Source: Membranipora membranacea
Taxonomy: Eukaryota > Bryozoa > Gymnolaemata > Cheilostomatida > Membraniporidae
NCBI GenBank assembly: GCA_914767715.1
Contig: OU612074.1
Span: 24,290,062-24,354,061, forward strand
Reading direction: 5' to 3'
DNA: 64,000 nt
The notes beneath the pieces were generated by a model. It saw nothing but the letters and a program-made list of their open reading frames with translations, was not told the DNA's origin and did no database searches. Positions 42,654 through 63,650 of the stretch are shown here, one piece after another (the first letter of the stretch is position 1; each line of letters begins with the position of its first letter). The translations under genes and the position numbers were made by a program.

Positions 42654-45600
42654 TTATCTGATTACTTTCTCACAGAAGAAGTAGCGACCACCGTTACACC
42701 CCCAGTCATCCCAGTAATAAGATAGGCCTGCATATGTACCAAGACAGAGTGATGTGTTGTCGTTCGGCTGTCCGCCAGCGAAGAAGCTGTACTGAATCTC
42801 CCCGCTAACCCTACCATACCAGTTCCAGTGGGAACTACCAGAAGATCTTTTACCTCCAATCCAGGAATCACAATTCCACCCTGAAACTAAAATAAATGGT
42901 AATGATGTTACTGCATGCATGTGATGTAATTTTTTCCAATACATTTGTTAAAAACTTTCTATTTGGCAATCACGCTAATGCATACATCATAGCAGGCTAT
43001 AGAATTGTGCCTGCAAGAGTACAGCACCATAGTCAATATTCTTAGCTTGAATGTAAAAATTTGCTATGTGAGAGATATTGTGTCGTGCATTATGTCCTGC
43101 ATTGGGTCGCGCACTGTGTTGCGCACTCTGTCGCACATTGTGTTGCACATTGTGTCACACATTCTGTCACACACTTAGCACCTGGTGATTTGCAGTAACT
43201 AACCTTCCTGCTGCTGGATACGAAGCCATGTTGCATCTTGAATGGTGTCAAATGTGGCTAACTTTTCACCTGCATTCTCACAATAGGATTTGGCATCGTT
43301 CCAGTTCTTTGATATTCTGACGATTCTAATACAAGTGTTAGAGTATGGATTACGCTGATACCCTGATGAGCATCGAACTAGATCTGAAATATAGAAAAAC
43401 TGTTTGGACATGGGGAATAATTACTAATGTTTTGTGTCAACTTTTATACAGTTACAAAGTTAGAAGTGTTGACTGTTGAGATCAACCACCTTCTGTTTCG
43501 CAACTATTTTTTTTTGGTCGGGCAGCAATGGAGAATATTTTCTGCAATATAAGCATTCAGAAAGTTTGATTTTATGAATATCTGACTAGACATGATAATA
43601 AATACCTTGATGCACCCAAGTCCCACGCTCTCCTTTAGAACCAGTCAATCCTCTAACGCCAGGTTCGCCTTTTTGACCACGAGACCCTTGTAGCCCGGCA
43701 GTGCCTGGTACGCCAGGAGCTCCACTTCGTCCTGGTAACCCATTAGATCCGACTAGCCCTTTACTGCCTGGTGGTCCCCTTACTCCGGGATCTCCCTTAG
43801 CCCCACTGGATCCAGGTGTTCCATCTTCTCCGGGTAGTCCATGTATACCGGACTCACCTATAGAACCTTTATCCCCTTTTGTGCCAGGAGAGCCTGGGAT
43901 TCCATGTGTTCCGGGTATACCTATCAAAGTGACAAAGGCTTAGAAATGACTTGCAACTCATGACAGTTAAGTCGTCACATATACATATTGTGGTGAGTGA
44001 CATGAAACATCAGATGCCATGTGAAGATGTATCTTGGAGAATGAGAACATAACAGATCTGAATTTTATCTCTTTGCTGAAAACTTACCATTAACGCCATC
44101 ATCTCCATCAGCTCCGTCCTTCCCGTCATCTCCCTTCAGTAAAGTCACCAACTCTACAACACAGTATAACACCCAGTATAACATCTATCCCAAATTTACT
44201 CTTGAAGCATATAATACTAATCTCATGTATGTTCTAAATGCTTATGAACTAGTTGGACTTCATCAAACTTCTAGGAGAAGTAAACACTCAAGGAAAGCTA
44301 GGAGCGAGAACAATCAACCTTTATAGGGCAAGTCACCTGCCGCACCAATGGCCACCTGCTCCATCTCACCATTCGCAAAAATAATGGGTTGAATAATTGA
44401 CAAGTCAGTTCCTGCTAAAATCTTTGCGATTATAGAGGTTGGAACAATCAGCCAGGAATTCTCCCCAAATGGGACTCTACTAGTAAACTCCTACAACCAG
44501 CAGGCAGTGAATAGCCAGTGTGCTAAGCAATTATGTAATCTAGTATCTCAAAAAGGTTGGGCTGAGATTAGCAGCAGGCTATACTCTGAACTCACCAGTC
44601 AGTGATAGTCGGCTGAATATTCCATCCAGGTCGTCCCCACCTTCTCCCTCTACTACTTCCTGTCTGGCTGCCACTCCTTGGGAAACTTCTGCTACTGCCT
44701 TAGATATAACCGGCACTGTGAACTAAAATAGAGTTAATCAGAAGCCTTAACGAGGGCAGTATTAACTAGTAGAGCGAAATTGCCCGCTTCAACCTGCCGT
44801 AAACTCTGGAACGACAAATATTTAGCTTTTGACATGAGCCAAGTCTGAAACAGTTAAGTTAACAAAGGAAAGATTATTAGTTGAATGCGTGCTCGTCTAC
44901 ACACAGTTACGGAGGAGATTAACTGACCATAGTAGCGAGTTTCTTCACTGAGTCTGTCAGTTTGATGAGTTTCGTCTCACATTGACTCGAAGTTTTCTCT
45001 AGCTGCTGAATTCTTTGCGTGAACGTCTCCTCCACTTTGTGAGGAAATCCTCCAACAATTAGGCAACAAATCACCATAACCAGGAACCGACTAAAAATAC
45101 ATTAATACACTAACTTTGGCCATCTTAAGAGAAATAATATTTGCGTTGTTTTTGTTAATAAAATTATCATAATAACAATAATAAGTAGATCTGAATGAAG
45201 TGAACTAGAAATCATACCAACTACCAACTACCAACTACCAACTACCAACTACCAACTACCAACTACCAACTACCAACTACCAACTACCAACTACCAACTA
45301 CCAACTACCAACTACCAACTACCAACTACCAACTACCAACTACCAACTACCAACTACCAACTACCAACTACCAACTACCAACTACCAACTACCAACTACC
45401 AACTACCAACTACCAACTACCAACTACCAACTACCAACTACCAACTACCAACTCCCAACTCCCAACTCCCAACTCCCAACTACCAACTCCCAACTCCCAA
45501 CTCCCAACTACCAACTACCAACTACCAACTACCAACTACCAACTACCAACTACCAACTACCAACTACCAACTACCAACTACCAACTACCAACTACCAACT

Positions 45601-46206
45601 ACCAACTACCAACTACCAACTACCAACTACCAACTACCAACTACCAACTACCAACTACCAACTACCAACTACCAACTACCAACTACCAACTACCAACTAC
45701 CAACTACCAACTACCAACTACCAACTACCAACTACCAACTACCAACTACCAACTAAATTTACACAAATATACAATAATCATGAATTGTGTACATTTAAAA
45801 GATTCTTTCACATTGCCAAGGTAAGTTTACCATGGGAGCTATTGTTGATGTGTTGATTTTACTTTATCAAAAAAATTTATTTTGCTGTCATATAACCTTT
45901 GTGGGTTCTTAGTGTTATATGAATAATGATAAATTAATAGGCAACCTGTGTCTTTGAAATGACAAAAGCGATGTTCACATGCCTCAATCATAATCTCTTA
46001 AGTTATTTGGAATATGATTTAAGGGACTGCTGAAAATGAAACTGGTGTTCTGATTGTATGCCCTTTAGAAGTCTTATGTACATGAAAACACAAGCATTTT
46101 AGATGATTTTTTCCTCAAAAAATTGATATCTCACGGTTAGACCTCAAGCAGACTAAAAGAGATACTAAAATACTCACCCATGGCTAGCAGAGATCAGTGA
46201 AGTCAT
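42654..46206 (-). CDS. Collagen-domain C-type lectin with QPN motif, 368 aa
   Basis: Coding exons (minus): 46206-46178, 45090-44928, 44722-44596, 44153-44088, 43920-43606, 43383-43204, 42880-42654 (TAA). Phases 2,0,1,1,1,1 match the plus-strand paralogue exactly. The signal peptide is split by intron 1 (M-T-S-L-I-S-A-S-H-G / R-F-L-V-M-V-I-C-C-L-I-V). A heptad-like helix with one Cys (Q-Q-L-E-K-T-S-S-Q-C) and an acidic linker follow. About 38 uninterrupted Gly-X-Y triplets come next, then a C-type lectin domain of ~135 residues starting V-R-C-S-S-G-Y and ending F-F-C-E-K. The architecture is collectin-like, but the helix precedes the collagen rather than forming a neck. The sugar-selecting tripeptide is Q-P-N with W-D-D-W-G-C downstream, between EPN (mannose-type) and QPD (galactose-type). 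Probably a secreted trimer-based recognition protein. The splice to the last exon could use TTTTAG or TTTCAG; the latter keeps frame. Confidence 0.92.
45213..45755. repeat. Heptamer array (ccaacta)n, ~77 copies, in intron 1 of the QPN lectin
   Basis: About 540 bp of ctaccaa heptamers, nearly perfect except for one block of ccaactc variants at about 45445-45505. It occupies the intron that splits the signal peptide, the same intron that carries the 28-bp array in the paralogue, with unrelated sequence. The plus strand is stop-free in all three frames (P-T-T-N-Y-Q-L). Confidence 0.95.
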
Positions 46207-50348: not shown

Positions 50349-50894
50349 TAGATAACACTAGATAAGCATGGTTATGGTTGAAAAGGAAAGTTTGCCAGGC
50401 AAGCCGCCATGTAAAATGTTCATCAAAACTGCGCTTTTAGCCATTTATGGGCAAAAGAGGAAATATGGACATGGATATGAACAGTGTCAAACGTGAAAAC
50501 ACTGAATGGGAAAATTTGAATAACTTCACAGGCGAAAATGGAGAAAAACATTTTTTCCTATGCTGATAACGATTTGACTTAGACTTTCAAGGTTGAGCAG
50601 GAGCGATCATATGAGATCTGAGACATGCCAAACTTGGAGCACAGTGATGGAGGCCAGTGCTGGATATATCTTATAGTAAGGAGTTATTGAATCACTTTGG
50701 CAGCAGTGACAGAATAAATATCAACTATTCATATCACAGCGCAACCATTAAATATCATAATCACAAATTCAAAAAAAGTTTTAATGTTGTGAAACCGACC
50801 AATCAACAGTATTTCTCCCTTCATTTAACTTATATAATATAGTGAGAGGGAAATCTGCTATGTTTAGTTCTACATACTACTTGTTTTTAGTAAG

Positions 50895-53800
50895 ATGTAT
50901 CTAACTATACACAGGTAGATGATAAACTAAACTGTTTCAGATTCTTATTTGTGGGTTGTTGTTACAGATTACTTATTTGTGGGTTGTTGTTACAGATTAC
51001 TTATTTGTGGGTTGTTGTTATAGATTACTTATTTGTGGGTTGTTGTTACAGATTACTTATTTGTGGGTTGTTGTTACAGATTACTTATTTGTGGGATGCT
51101 GTTACAGATTACTTATTTGTGGGATGCTGTTACAGATTACTTATTTGTGCGCTATGGTTACAGATTACTTATTTGTGGGATGCTGTTACAGGTTACTTAT
51201 TTGTGGGTTGTTGTTACAGATTACTTATTTGTGGGTTGTTGTTACAGATTACTTATTTGTGGGTTGTTGTTACAGATTACTTATTTGTGGGATGCTGTTA
51301 CAGATTACTTATTTGTGCGCTATGGTTACAGATTACTAATTTGTGGGATGCTGTTACAGATTACTTATTTGTGGGCTGTTGTTACATATTACTTATTTGT
51401 GGGTTGTTGTTACAGATTACTTATTTATGGGTTGTTGTTACAGATTACTTATTTGTGGGTTGTTGTTATAGATTACTTATTTGTGGGATGCTGTTACAGA
51501 TTACTTATTTGTGGGCTGTTGTTACATATTACTTATTTGTGGGTTGTTGTTACAGATTACTTATTTATGGGTTGTTGTTACAGATTACTTATTTGTGGGT
51601 TGTTGTTATAGATTACTTATTTGTGGTTATTGTTACAGATTACTTATTTGTGGGTTGCTATTACAGATTACTTATTTGTGGGCTGTTGTTATAGATTACT
51701 TATATGTGGGTTGTTGTTACAGATTACTTATTTGCGGGTTATTGTTACAGATTACTTATTTGTGAGTTGTTGTTACAGATTACTTATTTGTGGGCTGTTG
51801 TTACAGATTACTTATTTGTGGGCTGTTGTTACAGATTACTTATTTGTGAGTTGTTGTTACAGATTACTTATTTGTGGGCTGTTGTTATAGATTACTTATA
51901 TGTGGGTTGTTGTTACAGATTACTTATTTGCGGGTTATTGTTACAGATTACTTATTTGTGAGTTGTTGTTACAGATTACTTATTTGTGGGATGCTGTTAC
52001 AGATTACTTATTTGTGGGTTGTTGTTACAGGTTACTTATTTGTGGGTTGTTGTTACAGATTACTTATATGTGGGTTGTTGTTACAGATTACTTTTTTGTG
52101 GGTTGTTGTTACAGATCACTTAATTATGGGTTGTTGTTATAGACTATTTATGGTTATTTGTGGGATGCTGTTACAGATTACTTATTTGTGGGCTGTTGTT
52201 ACATATTACTTATTTGTGGGTTGTTGTTACAGATTACTTATTTATGGGTTGTTGTTACAGATTACTTATTTGTGGGTTGTTGTTATAGATTACTTATTTG
52301 TGGGATGCTGTTACAGATTACTTATTTGTGGGTTGTTGTTACAGATTACTTATTTGTGGGATGTTGTTACAGATTACTTATTTGTGGGCTGTTGTTACAG
52401 ATTACTTATTTGTGAGTTGTTGTTACAGATTACTTATTTGTGGGCTGTTGTTATAGATTACTTATATGTGGGTTGTTGTTACAGATTACTTATTTGTGGG
52501 TTGTTGTTACAGATTACTTATATGTGGGTTGTTGTTACAGATTACTTATTTGTGGGATGCTGTTACAGATTACTTATTTGTGCGCTATGGTTACAGATTA
52601 CTAATTTGTGGGATGCTGTTACAGATTACTTATTTGTGGGCTGTTGTTACATATTACTTATTTGTGGGTTGTTGTTACAGATTACTTATTTATGGGTTGT
52701 TGTTACAGATTACTTATTTGTGGGTTGTTGTTATAGATTACTTATTTGTGGGATGCTGTTACAGATTACTTATTTGTGGGCTGTTGTTACATATTACTTA
52801 TTTGTGGGTTGTTGTTACAGATTACTTATTTATGGGTTGTTGTTACAGATTACTTATTTGTGGGTTGTTGTTATAGATTACTTATTTGTGGTTATTGTTA
52901 CAGATTACTTATTTGTGGGTTGCTATTACAGATTACTTATTTGTGGGCTGTTGTTATAGATTACTTATATGTGGGTTGTTGTTACAGATTACTTATTTGC
53001 GGGTTATTGTTACAGATTACTTATTTGTGAGTTGTTGTTACAGATTACTTATTTGTGGGTTGTTGTTACAGATTACTTATTTGTGGGCTGTTGTTACAGA
53101 TTACTTATTTGTGAGTTGTTGTTACAGATTACTTATTTGTGGGCTGTTGTTATAGATTACTTATATGTGGGTTGTTGTTACAGATTACTTATTTGCGGGT
53201 TATTGTTACAGATTACTTATTTGTGAGTTATTGTTACAGATTACTTATTTGTGAGTTGTTGTTATAGATTACTTATTTGTGGGTTGTTGTGCATTCTGAC
53301 TGTGAATGCACAGTCTAAAGGAGATGAAGACTCTCAATGCAGCTGCTCTGTACTGCAGAATAAGGTTGAGAAACTTGAAGCTGCCATGAAGAAGTTTGTT
53401 ATGATGGTAAGTCTCTTCCCAAATATACAAACTCGTACATCCAACACATTTTCATCACCCTTCCACTGTGTGTGGTTGTCAGTTTGACCATCTTTAGAGA
53501 ATTGTTTTCATTGTAATTACTGCAGTAATCTTTGAACACTGAACGAGAACAGTTACTTTGCTCTCTTTATGTCACCAGTTCACAGCCACAGCACCTAAAG
53601 AGGCGACTCCAGGCCTGAGTAAGGAAGGTGAAGGAGCCAAACAGGCTGTTGAGGAGATGGAAGATAATGATGTGGATTTAGAAGGGATATTGAGTGGACT
53701 TTCAGCTAAAGGTAATACATGATATTATATTATAATGAGGCTGTCTCATACTAAGTACTATACATATTCTCTATTGGATAAGGCTCATTGTGTATTTCAG

Positions 53801-55845
53801 GTACTCAACTTCTTTGGCATAAGCTTGTATGATTGTATGTCATATGGTTGTAAAGAGGGAAGGAAAGTATCTGTAAGACAATAATAATCTAACTTTTTTT
53901 TGAGTTTACAGATTTGTTGGCCCTTCTCAAAGGTGATGATGGGCGTGATGGATTAAACGGTGAGCAATGTCTCATCAATGATTGTATACTTCAACGCTTC
54001 TGATATTTTGATTCTTCAGTTTGGGTTTTGCTACTGAATTATTTTTATGTTGTTGATTCAACACTGATGAAAGAGAATGAAGAGAATTAAAACCCCATTG
54101 ATTAGTCCAAGTCAGATAAGGATAGTGATAATGGTGAGATAGTGTAGTGATGATTTCAACCAGCTACATTGAATTCTTAGCCTATAGGGAGACATTGAAG
54201 TTATAGCCTATAGGGAGACATTGATTTGATTATAATGAATGTGATTTTCTTATTTTGACCATAGATCAAAGTTAATTGTGGTAGTTTAGGCTGTATCAAG
54301 CCCAGCTGTATCAGGCCCAGCTGTATCAGGCCCAGCTGTATCAGGCCCAGCTGTATCAGGCCCAGCTGTATCAGGCCCAGCTGTTAAAGACTAATATTTG
54401 TTTATTTTAGGTCTTCCTGGATATCCAGGTCACAACGGGCAAAATGGTGAGAAAGGAGATAGAGGCGCACCAGGAACACCCGGAAATCATGGATTATCCG
54501 GAGAGGATGGACAGGCTGGAGAACCAGGCACAAAAGGTGTCAAAGGTGAACCAGGTGCTCTCGGAGTTGGCGGTACAAAAGGAGCAGATGGGAGTATAGG
54601 GCCAGTTGGACCTAAAGGAACTCGTGGTGAGCTAGGCTATCAGGGACAAGCTGGTATAAAAGGGTCTAGAGGGTTACCTGGAGCAACGGGAGACCAGGGA
54701 ATACAAGGGTTACCTGGAGCAAAGGGAGACCAGGGTACCTGGAAACAACAGAGTGAGTTCATTATTATGTCATCGCTTAAAAATAAAAGCACACAAAATG
54801 ATCGCACAACTTGGGTGAAACTATTATAAGATTTTCTATCATTTGTAATGATAAAGTTCCAGACAGATCCAGACAGCATTGCTATGAAAAGTAGTAACTG
54901 TGATCTCAGCAAAATCCGTATTTGAATGACGTCAAGAAATCGCAGATAACTAAAGAATGATCGGAGGATCTTGAATACTGATCACCTTTTGTATATATCT
55001 GTAGATCTAGTTGTCTGCCCATCAGGATACAAACTCAATCCCTACTCTAATACTTGTATCCGCCTTGTGACATCATATAAACGCTGGTCTGATGCTCGAA
55101 ACTACTGTAGAGTCAGCGGAGAGGAATTAGCAACATTTGAAACTATTCAAGGAGCAGCCTGGCTTAGAATTCAACAACAACAAGGTATGAGCGATTCAGA
55201 TCTTAATAGTGGTTCATTCAGTTTCAGTGTCTGCCTCCAAGTGTAGCTGTGTGCTGTTCTTGTCCAATTTTACTCGGCCTGAAGGGGTAATTCAACTGAC
55301 AGCGGTATCAAAATATCATAAATCATGAACGCCAAACGCAACTAATATAGCCTGTATAATTTGAAATGGACGACTTGAAATCACTAAACGATTTACAATG
55401 AAACTAGATGTACACTAGATATATATTTTCATCACTTTTCGAATACGATTGGGTATCAGTACACTCCTCATTTACATGGAAAAGTTCACTACTGCTCCGA
55501 AAATGGCTGGGGAAATATGAATGCTGCTAACCATTGAATGGGGTATGGCTGAGTGATCGCTTTACGCTGACTGGACCTTTTATACCTGCCTTTTGCCTTC
55601 AAACGTTTTTTTCCTACTTTTAAGTCTCAGGATGGAATGTTCTTGCGTGGATCGGAGGGAGACTATCTCAGGGCCGTTGGCACTGGCAGGGACTAGTAAG
55701 AGAGGAAATACAGTACAGCTACTTTGCTGATGAGGAACCAAATAATGGCGCAAGTTGTTTGGGCACATATCCTCAAGGGGACTACTTCTGGGATGATGGC
55801 GGATGTGATGAGCGCAGGTTCTTCTGTGAGAAAACAGTCAACTAA
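50895..55845 (+). CDS. Collagen-domain C-type lectin with EPN motif, 358 aa
   Basis: Exons: 50895-50914 (inferred), 53268-53406, 53579-53711, 53912-53959, 54411-54752, 55005-55184, 55631-55845 (TAA). Phases 2,0,1,1,1,1 equal those of the QPN paralogue. Exon 1 (M-Y-L-T-I-H, phase 2) lies 4 bases after a tttttag acceptor. Joining to 53268 gives the signal peptide MYLTIHR then LLICGLLCILTVNA, with Arg at the junction as in the paralogue. A Cys-rich start (S-Q-C-S-C-S) and short helix follow, then an acidic linker. About 40 Gly-X-Y triplets come next, then a C-type lectin domain (V-C-P-S-G-Y to F-F-C-E-K) with E-P-N and W-D-D-G-G-C. AATAAA is at 55914. Predicted secreted, trimeric, Ca2+-dependent mannose-type lectin. 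Intron 1 is almost wholly a 28-bp array of acceptor copies, so correct splicing is in question. Exons 2-7 are secure; exon 1 is tentative. Confidence 0.88.
50941..53291 (+). repeat. 28-bp tandem array (~80+ copies), each unit a 3' splice acceptor plus the signal-peptide exon start
   Basis: The unit reads gttgttacag|attacttat followed by ttgtgg. The first copy follows a classical acceptor (ctgtttcag|attcttattt at 50940), and the last runs into the genuine exon at 53268. Variants include ttatag acceptors, catatt (acceptor destroyed) and about eight tttgtgagt units that create a strong donor motif. A higher-order duplication is clear: about 51300-51960 recurs 1265 bp downstream almost unchanged. 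The unit length is not a multiple of three and lacks stops in most variants, so long hydrophobic open frames in all frames are by-products. Confidence 0.95.
54292..54386. repeat. 15-bp repeat before the collagen exon of the EPN lectin
   Basis: About six copies of caggcccagctgtat end about 25 bp before the collagen exon acceptor (tttattttag at 54410). Each unit contains cag/ccag motifs. Confidence 0.85.
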
Positions 55846-61591: not shown

Positions 61592-63650
61592 TTATTTGTT
61601 ATCATACTTGCTGCCAAGATTCTGGTTTCTGGTGGGAATGGATGTCGATGATTTTGAGTTCCTTTTTCTCTTCTCTTGTTTGTTTACTGGTTCAGATTTC
61701 TGAGCAGCTTCAGCAGCAGCGGCAGCTTCAGCAGCAGCAGAAGCGGCAGCAGCAGCAGAAGCGGCAGCAGCAGCTGTATCTTTTCTAACAAAAGGACAGT
61801 ATGGTGAGAATGACTCAATGTCTCAGGTGAGGGGCTCAGGTGAGACTCTCAGGTGAGAGTCTCAGGTGTGCGGTCGGTGTATTGTGCAACGCTACCTTAT
61901 TCCAAACTTGGACCAGTTACCATTGTCTCAAACTGTAATTGCAAAATATCTGCAAACCAAACAGAGTTACTTATACTACATTTTGAACAAGGAACTTCTC
62001 TATATATAGCCCACATGGTATGTACCCTTCATGGTATGTACCCTACATGGTATGTACCCTACATGGTATGTACCCTTCATGGTATGTTGGTTTCACTAGT
62101 AACAGTACCTCTCACTTTTTCTCATCTTATCCTCAGCAGTATCCTCAGCCACTGGTCCAGCTTGAGCCTCCGGTTCTACAGCAGCTTTTTGTGGTTGTTT
62201 GTATTCACTTTTAGGTGGATATCGTTCTATTAAGGGTCTGATTCGTGACACAAATCCATAGCTGTCATCACTGATCAAATTCAACAATCGATCAAATACA
62301 ACAATCGATCAAATACAACAATCGATCAAATACAACAATCGATCAAATACAACAATCGATCAAATACAACAATCGATCAAATACAACAATCGATCAAATA
62401 CAACAATCAATCAAATACAAAGATTGATGAATTTATAAATTTTACTGTGCTTAAATTATTCTCTCACCACATGGACAAGTCGGTGACGGTACTTTTATTG
62501 TTCACTTGCTCCGCTGGTCTTCTCAAAGTTTATCACACAAGCAGGTCAGTCTTTAGGTTTATGGGTTTAGTTTATTTAGTTCAAGATCATTGAAAGACTT
62601 CAGTGTATATGATGATTATAAAGTATCTAAAGTAAACACCTGTCTAGTCTTATAATTAACTTACGCTTCAAGAAAATGATTGAGACGATCAAAATCGATT
62701 TGTGGGTCACCTGATCCCTGAGCCACAAAATCAGTTTCCATTACTGAATAGTATTTGCCTGGAAGGAAAATAAGAAATATTTTTAGAACCGACATGGCAA
62801 ATACTTTGTGATGTATACATAGCTATAGGTGCTGGCAGTTTGTATTCAGTCTCTACATTGTAGGAGAATGGAGTGTTAATCAACATAGAAGTGGAACTAT
62901 GACATTATATTAGCACTCATCCCAAGGATAAGTGTCCAACACAACAAACATAAGGCCTTAAGAGGAGCAATACAATAATATAATAATACAATACAATACA
63001 ATAATAGGTATTGTTATATTTTACTTTTCATCACACATGCATCAAAAGTATAAAATCATTACTATTACAGGCAATGACTGAGCAGCCCCAATCTCACCAT
63101 TCTAGTATACTATTACAGGCAATGACTGAGCAGCCCCAATCTCACCATTCTAGTATACTATTACAGGCAATGACTAAACAGCCCCAATCCCACCATTCTA
63201 GTATACTATTACAGGCAATGACTGAGCAGCCCCAATCTCACCATTCTAGTATACTATTACAGGCAATGACTGAGCAGCCCCAATCCCACCATTCTAGTAT
63301 ACTATTACAGGCAATGACTGAGCAGCCCCAATCCCACCATTCTAGTATACTATTACAGGCAATGACTGAGCAGTCCCAATCCCACCATTCTAGTATACTA
63401 TTACAGGCAATGACTGAGCAGTCCCAATCCCACCATTCTAGTATACTATTACAGGCAATGACTGAGCAGCCCCAATCCCACCATTCTAGTATAATTTAAT
63501 TATAACACGAGTGACATGCCTGCTTTTGAGAGAGCAGCGCTCTGACACCGACTTTGATATTCCCATATCTTTGCTCCTATAAGTGATGTATCATAACCCA
63601 CTATACTATCTGTATTCGGTGAGGGTACGATCGATGGATGGTTTGAAGCG
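61592..63650 (-). CDS. 3' part of an unidentified gene with Ala-rich, Lys/Arg-rich C-terminus
   Basis: Exons (minus): 63650-63520, 62758-62665, 62261-62109, 61784-61592 (TAA). Phases fit throughout: 1, 2, 2. The first intron appears to be GC-AG (AAAGCAG|GCATGT ... TTCCAG); the others are GT-AG. The encoded ~190 aa read V-G-Y-D-T-S-L-I-G-A-K-I-W-E-Y-Q-S, then K-Y-Y-S-V-M-E-T-D-F-V, I-D-F-D-R-L-N-H-F-L-E-A-Y-G-F-V-S-R-I-R-P-L-I. A Pro/Glu/Ala linker follows, then an Ala tract (A-A-A-A-A-S-A-A-A-A-A-S) with scattered Glu, and a basic tail (K-R-K-R-N-S-K-S-S-T). The basic tail could be a nuclear-localisation-type signal. The gene continues beyond the window to the right. I do not recognise the family. 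Confidence 0.68.
62280..62420. repeat. 17-bp repeat, ~8 copies
   Basis: Unit caatcgatcaaatacaa, ending within 25 bp of the acceptor of the 62261-62109 exon on the minus strand. Confidence 0.9.
63062..63497. repeat. 48-bp minisatellite, ~9 copies, in the first visible intron of the 61.6-63.65 kb gene
   Basis: Unit contains actattacaggcaatgactg, agcagccccaatctcacc and attctagtat. It is exactly 16 codons and open on the plus strand, giving a periodic peptide (I-L-L-Q-A-M-T-E-Q-P). The minus gene is transcribed the other way and the array lies within an intron, so the plus frame is not considered a gene. Confidence 0.92.

Follow-up and report, generated by a model that had tools for sequence, protein, structure and literature searches.

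Minisatellite-like copies of intron-exon boundaries, known as mirages, have been described in amphioxus, where they occur in Adh3 and in the globin genes BflGb6 and BflGb9 (Canestro et al. 2002, cited in PMC3087553). In BflGb6, the repeated unit of 150-160 bp joins an intron end to an exon start and is present 6 times in one haplotype and 3 times in another; according to the same account, RT-PCR of amphioxus mirages suggested regular splicing (PMC3087553). On the donor side, a VNTR in intron 18 of human ABCA7 is built of 25-bp units that lie flush with the exon, the first two bases being the GT donor of exon 18, and ranges from 12 to ~427 units (PMC5954066). Longer alleles are reported to show skipping of exon 19 and reduced expression, the rarer of two frameshifting isoforms being at 2% (PMC5954066). 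Close competing acceptors are also known as NAGNAG tandems, two sites 3 nt apart between which position and context help the choice (PMC3250501, PMC2875228).

Here we describe an array of acceptor-like units in a gene on chromosome 10 (contig C10) of the bryozoan Membranipora membranacea. The window, the whole 64-kb stretch of DNA analysed, covers C10 24,290,062-24,354,061. Judged by its anatomy, the C10 array would class as a mirage: the unit spans the intron-exon boundary of our gene model (5 intronic and 23 exonic nt), many copies carry splice signals (77/83 units end in AG, and the scores of 77 YAG acceptors resemble those of 16 real sites), and the units appear to evolve in concert, with identities of 0.92 and 0.90 within the arrays of two paralogues against 0.88 between them and a variant at unit position 12 shared by exon and array. 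It therefore resembles the amphioxus mirages, as these are summarised in the source above, in having boundary-spanning tandem copies and concerted evolution within a cluster. It differs from BflGb6, with its 6 or 3 units of 150-160 bp, in consisting of 84 units of 28 bp that fill the intron and of which 23/28 nt are coding. Arrays occur here in two paralogues, whereas regular splicing is suggested by RT-PCR in amphioxus only.

The ABCA7 VNTR likewise repeats splice sites in tandem within a coding gene, but it lies on the donor side, its source calls the repeat intronic and its splicing effects were measured, whereas the C10 array lies on the acceptor side and is known from sequence. C10 units carry an acceptor in place of a donor in each unit, with the donor-like GTGAGT in 8 of them. 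NAGNAG tandems are similar in offering close competitors; however, the C10 array has 77 sites mostly 28 nt apart, with a branch-like site in nearly each unit, and outside one irregular stretch its successive sites are spaced by 27-28 nt in place of 3 nt. Recursive splicing uses a ratchet point, an AG directly followed by a GT donor. The units of the array start with ATTACT, and a GTTACT start is found in 2/83 parsed units (51192, 52031), so that the array does not have this form. We set DDX3Y aside as a parallel, as the minisatellite described there holds the transcription start and not repeated acceptors (PMC3039753). No boundary array in a bryozoan was found in the open-licence PMC literature on boundary minisatellites and bryozoan repeats, which is weak evidence of absence. 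The copy number, the nearly all-repeat intron, the origin in a signal peptide and the paralogous arrays go beyond the cases as described in these sources, and it is also unusual that exon and array have a coding variant in common.

Gene model

The array-bearing gene of the window lies on the plus strand, and its 7 coding exons give a 358-residue ORF with zero internal stops. Exon edges were set from splice consensus together with the chromosome 3 paralogue, and the following features are predicted on this basis:

50799 to 50803, plus strand: CCAAT-like element, in a block starting at 50779 that is alignable to sequence upstream of the chromosome 3 paralogue
50830 to 50841, plus strand: TATA-like element TTATATAATATA; the paralogue has GATATATATATA at roughly the same position
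50895 to 50914, plus strand: exon 1, coding part (MYLTIH and 2 nt, phase 2); the paralogue counterpart is MNLTVH and 2 nt
50915 to 53267, plus strand: intron 1 of the gene model, 2353 nt, 99% repeat array
53268 to 53406, plus strand: exon 2, coding for the signal peptide RLLICGLLCILTVNA and the beginning of the stalk; the initial 23 nt are the last array copy
53579 to 53711, plus strand: exon 3 of the gene model
53912 to 53959, plus strand: exon 4 of the gene model
54411 to 54752, plus strand: exon 5, collagen-like repeats (PF01391, Pfam)
55005 to 55184, plus strand: exon 6, first half of the C-type lectin domain (gene model and Pfam)
55631 to 55845, plus strand: exon 7, second half of the C-type lectin domain and stop (PF00059, Pfam)

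A Pfam search of the protein identified a collagen domain (PF01391 at 1e-19) and a C-type lectin domain (PF00059 at 3.8e-5, residues 253-354), both above cut-off, and on inspection by eye the N-terminal sequence MYLTIHRLLICGLLCILTVNAQS looks like a signal peptide. Given this domain order, a collagen-like stalk followed by a C-type lectin, we take the product to be a collectin; the likeness to collectins concerns the product alone and has no bearing on the array. Residues 1-112 gave zero matches at E <= 0.001 among 116 candidates from a protein database. The gene also holds a 15-bp array (GCTGTATCAGGCCCA) at 54290-54384 in intron 4, ending 26 nt before exon 5.

Exon 1 begins with the ATG at 50895, ends in CACAG at 50914 and is followed by the donor GTAGAT, and the corresponding sequence of the chromosome 3 paralogue is ATGAATCTAACCGTACACAG with the donor GTAAAT. 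The phase-2 exon 1 of the original prediction thus has a counterpart on chromosome 3. An alternative donor, GTAAGA at 50890, lies 5 nt upstream of the ATG and was rejected because its use would delete the start codon; the paralogue has a similar GTGAGA, so this may be start-codon context. Further upstream, an ATG at 50860 is not continuous with the lectin start and meets a stop after 14 codons, and the paralogue has CTGAGTTC there. This ATG may precede the transcription start.

Anatomy of the array

50933 to 53290, plus strand: 28-bp minisatellite, 84.1 copies (TRF, 90% matches, score 3843)
53240 to 53267, plus strand: last intronic unit, with acceptor TTATAG (53267) and a branch-like CTTAT and T-rich tract copied from the code of exon 2

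The tandem 28-bp array that had been proposed as intron 1 is present and has the top score among the 59 TRF rows of the window. Its consensus unit comprises ATTACTTATTTGTGGGTTGTTGT (23 nt, identical to the exon 2 start) and TACAG (5 nt, the intron end), that is 23/28 coding and 5/28 intronic nt. The acceptor is therefore fused to the start of the exon, as had been noticed, although the overlap between array and exon 2 is 23 nt (exon 2 starts at 53268 and the array ends at 53290) and not the ~16 first given. Parsing by the start motif yields 81 units at <=2 mismatches and 83 at <=3, including two 27-bp units, and one irregular stretch near 52115; outside that stretch the acceptors of neighbouring units are separated by 27-28 nt. 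All frames of the consensus unit are free of stops, and ORFs through parts of the array run up to 369 aa.

Beginning with the first copy of the exon start and ending at the acceptor, the array takes up 2327/2353 nt of intron 1. The unique stretch between the donor and the first copy is 26 nt in C10 and 92 nt in the chromosome 3 paralogue. Since 26 nt is below normal intron length, the C10 array must also supply the intron with its length, as well as with a branch-like site and an acceptor. The loose branch consensus is YTNAY, and a CTTAT that fits it stands in the same place in 75/78 in-register C10 units and 12/13 units of the chromosome 3 array, its branch-like A lying 20 nt upstream of the G in the following AG. 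These per-position counts use 78 in-register C10 units and 13 chromosome 3 units, the out-of-register unit at 50940 being left out. In the chromosome 3 array 13/14 units end in AG, and one of the exceptions in each array is the exon copy. The eight GTGAGT sites come from a variant inside the exon-derived part of the unit and could define cryptic exons inside the array.

By the gene model the array lies inside the transcription unit, in agreement with the original prediction. It is very improbable that the array is bypassed by an alternative first exon or a promoter downstream of it: the upstream region, start codon, donor and phase agree with the paralogue, and none of the 12 in-frame ATGs within the array has a frame that stays open as far as exon 2, while the next in-frame ATG (53386) follows the signal peptide. 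Because of these ATGs we rejected both the array as a coding N-terminus of the lectin and a lectin start inside or after it.

A paralogue with the same array

Our search with the array as a DNA query, which skips simple repeats and common words, revealed a single other locus (C3:2,231,017-2,231,414), and exon 2 as a query found the C10 and C3 loci and nowhere else at E <= 0.001. The chromosome 3 paralogue has a complete ORF, in which 233/333 aligned residues are identical to the C10 protein, and the pairwise comparison gives dN 0.18, dS 0.42 and dN/dS 0.43 (bootstrap 0.31-0.57). Its intron 1 ends in 13.9 copies of the 28-bp unit in the same place as the C10 array, a sixfold difference in copy number, and its upstream region, start codon, donor and phase-2 exon 1 all align with those of C10. 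A paralogue with a matching exon 1 and array supports the C10 gene model as predicted. The simplest reading of these alignments suggests an array older than the duplication that gave the C10 and C3 genes; arrays born independently at this conserved junction, or conversion of one locus by the other, could also have produced this pattern.

No comparable array was found in the stretches taken around two chromosome 2 paralogues, whose exon 2 was not located, or around a minus-strand paralogue in the window. The latter is a second collectin gene (42654-45090) that is 66% identical in the first lectin exon; its phase-2 exon 2 lies at 45090-44928, and an exon 1 was not found. Upstream of this exon 2, and not reaching it, are 77 copies of a 7-bp unit (45215-45755), probably in the first intron of the gene. 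On chromosome 2, a 42-bp array of 17 copies (C2:36792025-36792733; L012 7026-7734) lies between the known exons of the two tandem collectin paralogues.

Turnover of the array and probable exchange with the exon

The start of each exon 2 is slightly closer to its own array than to the other, with identities of 0.952 v 0.913 for C10 and 0.923 v 0.911 for C3, which are small margins. Unit position 12 is G in 73/78, A in 5/78 and T in 0/78 of the C10 units, with G in the exon; in the C3 units it is T in 8/13 and G in 5/13, with T in the exon, where TTT for TGT changes Cys to Phe in the signal peptide. As G is common to both loci it is probably ancestral, and a derived T in the C3 exon and array alike probably passed between them by copying, either from exon to array or from array to exon. 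Exchange between exon and array is probable mainly on the strength of this one site.

51258 to 51964, plus strand: 707-bp block in the array, copied at 52523-53229, 1265 bp downstream, with one mismatch

This near-identical block looks like a recent unequal exchange or block duplication, resembling ordinary minisatellite turnover. Within the one haplotype covered, it is an indirect sign of the length instability that goes with mirages. Long near-identical blocks are prone to misassembly, and those in the array give some reason to suspect the copy number of being an assembly artefact. That reading is extremely improbable, as usual HiFi reads are longer than the 2.4-kb array and the chromosome 3 array independently supports the existence of such a structure. 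The assembly itself is reported to derive from 66-fold HiFi data (PMC10290214).

Among the 78 C10 units, 2/5 positions of TACAG are variable against 12/23 in the rest of the unit (Fisher p = 1.0, a low-power test). The acceptor part is no more conserved than the rest, so that selection for decoy acceptors is without support from this weak test. The original prediction had offered a decoy array controlling output as one interpretation, and neither the conservation of acceptor positions nor the 707-bp block, with its look of ordinary turnover, speaks for it. We nevertheless weighed a regulatory array in which selection keeps redundant acceptors, lectin output is low or conditional, copy number acts as a rheostat and unproductive RNAs decay. 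Consistent with it are the presence of the array in both paralogues across a dS of ~0.42, the AG end of nearly all units (77/83 in C10, 13/14 in C3), the 83/85 AGs tested that do not open the lectin frame and the ABCA7 VNTR, in which length is reported to correlate with exon skipping and lower expression (PMC5954066). However, TACAG is not specially kept, copy number differs sixfold between the paralogues, and homogenisation by array turnover accounts for the likeness of the units without selection. We therefore regard a selected decoy as unlikely.

Genomic surroundings

The genome of M. membranacea is given as 339 Mb in 11 chromosomes (PMC10290214), with a total of 339,339,785 bases. The window lies within ~135 kb of the end of chromosome 10, which is 24.42 Mb long. 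With a period of >= 10 and >= 3 copies, TRF returned 37 rows in the 64-kb window and 14 rows, some of them overlapping, in a 200-kb sample made up of 20 evenly spaced stretches of chromosomes 1-4; the window thus has a ~8 times higher density of rows of period >= 10. The share of bases in repeats is 17.8% in the window against 11.3% in the sample, a smaller contrast because 2/20 sampled stretches are satellite DNA. Satellites of 178 bp (L019, C1:33.0 Mb) and 335 bp (L029, C3:24.0 Mb) fill these 10-kb stretches. Minisatellites are abundant throughout the window, and we find no evidence for the splice-site-driven expansion that had been suggested as the other possible origin of the array.

Two further observations concern repeats and contigs elsewhere. 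A 48-bp array of 9 copies at 63060-63493 of the window has a unit containing the acceptor-like-looking TACTATTACAGGCAATG, with no adjoining exon identified. Outside the 11 chromosomes, G000:C13:18627-19484 matches a kinase domain over positions 2-263 of 263 with 3 TAG and 5 TAA read through, and we would guess that this contig is perhaps a contaminant with a ciliate-like code.

Acceptor strength and reading frame

We scored acceptors with a model built from 16 acceptors of three collectin genes; it is small and pools positions, and it measures whether a site looks competent, not whether it is used. The 77 YAG acceptors of the array, 53267 included, have a median score of 3.8 (range 2.5-5.2), compared with 3.5 (range -1.8 to 6.1) as the leave-one-out median of the 16 real family acceptors. 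Background AGs (22,223 in the sampled DNA, two satellite loci dropped) have a median of -3.5, which places the array median at the 98th percentile. The claim of numerous near-identical, competent-looking acceptors thus holds on this small family-based score. The acceptor at 53267 ranks 32/77 and so has no advantage in strength. Among the 18 acceptors of the three collectin genes (6 each), 2 lie within arrays, and these are a homologous pair.

It is the reading frame that singles out the last site. The TGA at 53224-53226, which had been said to close the frame upstream, is present. Among the 85 AGs lying >=60 nt downstream of the donor, joins at 2 sites lead into an open lectin frame (53267 and 53255), and 53267 is the sole one of the 77 YAG acceptors to do so. 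The earlier proposal that the final acceptor is usable accordingly stands, but the set of usable joins has to admit 53255 (TGAG), a poor site that opens the frame too. Joining there would add four residues. Its score of -1.8 is level with the lowest real acceptor (-1.83) and far below the real median of 3.5, and it has a G at -3, found in 0/16 real family acceptors; on these figures 53255 could still conceivably serve as an acceptor, while TTATAG at 53267 is, we infer, the productive one. RNA structure gave no sign of presenting the last acceptor: the fold of 53128-53406 had z = -1.19, and 27/200 shuffles were as good. In the chromosome 3 gene 2/14 AGs tested open through exon 3, namely the junction and a site 84 nt upstream that adds 28 residues.

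Origin of the array and choice of acceptor

The array is probably a mirage-type minisatellite that is tolerated rather than selected, in which exon definition favours the last acceptor and lectin output may be lowered. A 28-bp piece across the junction of intron 1 and exon 2 (5 intronic and 23 coding nt) would have been duplicated, after which slippage and unequal exchange would have raised the number of copies to ~84. As it specifies a hydrophobic signal peptide, the copied code is T-rich, and it follows from the sequence that every duplication yields another complete acceptor, each copy providing the next with a putative branch site, a pyrimidine-rich tract and an AG. The intron by now consists of copies of its own exon. 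Judging from the frame, mature lectin mRNA would join 50914 to 53267, and leakage into upstream copies would give frameshifted, decay-prone RNA. The last acceptor may be preferred not for its own sequence but as the sole one directly before a full-length exon 2 with a donor. As the frame is kept in both paralogues, we take this acceptor to be used often enough, and older experiments with duplicated sites are reported to show that exon sequence and proximity matter for the choice of acceptor.

Several considerations run counter to this reading. Scanning models hold that the proximal AG is preferred (PMC3250501, PMC2875228), so that upstream copies would be expected to win, although PMC2875228 also describes many exceptions to this preference. 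With the GTGAGT sites, a donor-like sequence also lies close to some of the upstream acceptors, and the case for simple exon definition is weaker for it. An even choice among 77 acceptors would leave ~1% (1 in 77) productive RNA, a level that could hardly count as tolerated. That both paralogues have kept the array could also point to function.

A harsher reading is that the array is damaging: most C10 transcripts would end at upstream acceptors and yield little protein, the gene would be decaying, and the chromosome 3 copy with its 14 units would do the work. This is suggested by the lack of any sequence advantage of the last acceptor, by first-AG scanning as set out in the papers cited (PMC3250501, PMC2875228), by the cryptic exons that the eight GTGAGT sites could add and by the somewhat more forgiving chromosome 3 gene, with 2/14 AGs open through exon 3. 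However, the C10 frame is intact across 358 codons, and the pairwise dN/dS of 0.43 also argues against decay, though this value is blind to recent loss in one copy. We consider a damaging array improbable and retain a tolerated mirage as the preferred explanation.

Implications

Structures of this type have been described in lancelets, and the C10 array is an extreme case. It amounts to a natural experiment on acceptor choice, as one intron holds 77 near-identical, competent-looking 3' splice sites of which the last alone makes protein, and first-AG scanning and exon definition make differing predictions for the RNA of C10 intron 1. More speculatively, and with doubt, the coding sequence may act as its own splicing apparatus, the signal-peptide code doubling as branch site and pyrimidine tract and array turnover extending into the coding exon, with copy number setting the amount of lectin in an individual; an immune-type gene would then have a heritable dial, which perhaps also varies somatically. 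More generally, these collectin genes suggest that a T-rich signal-peptide code can found new acceptors and that minisatellite turnover can touch a coding exon.
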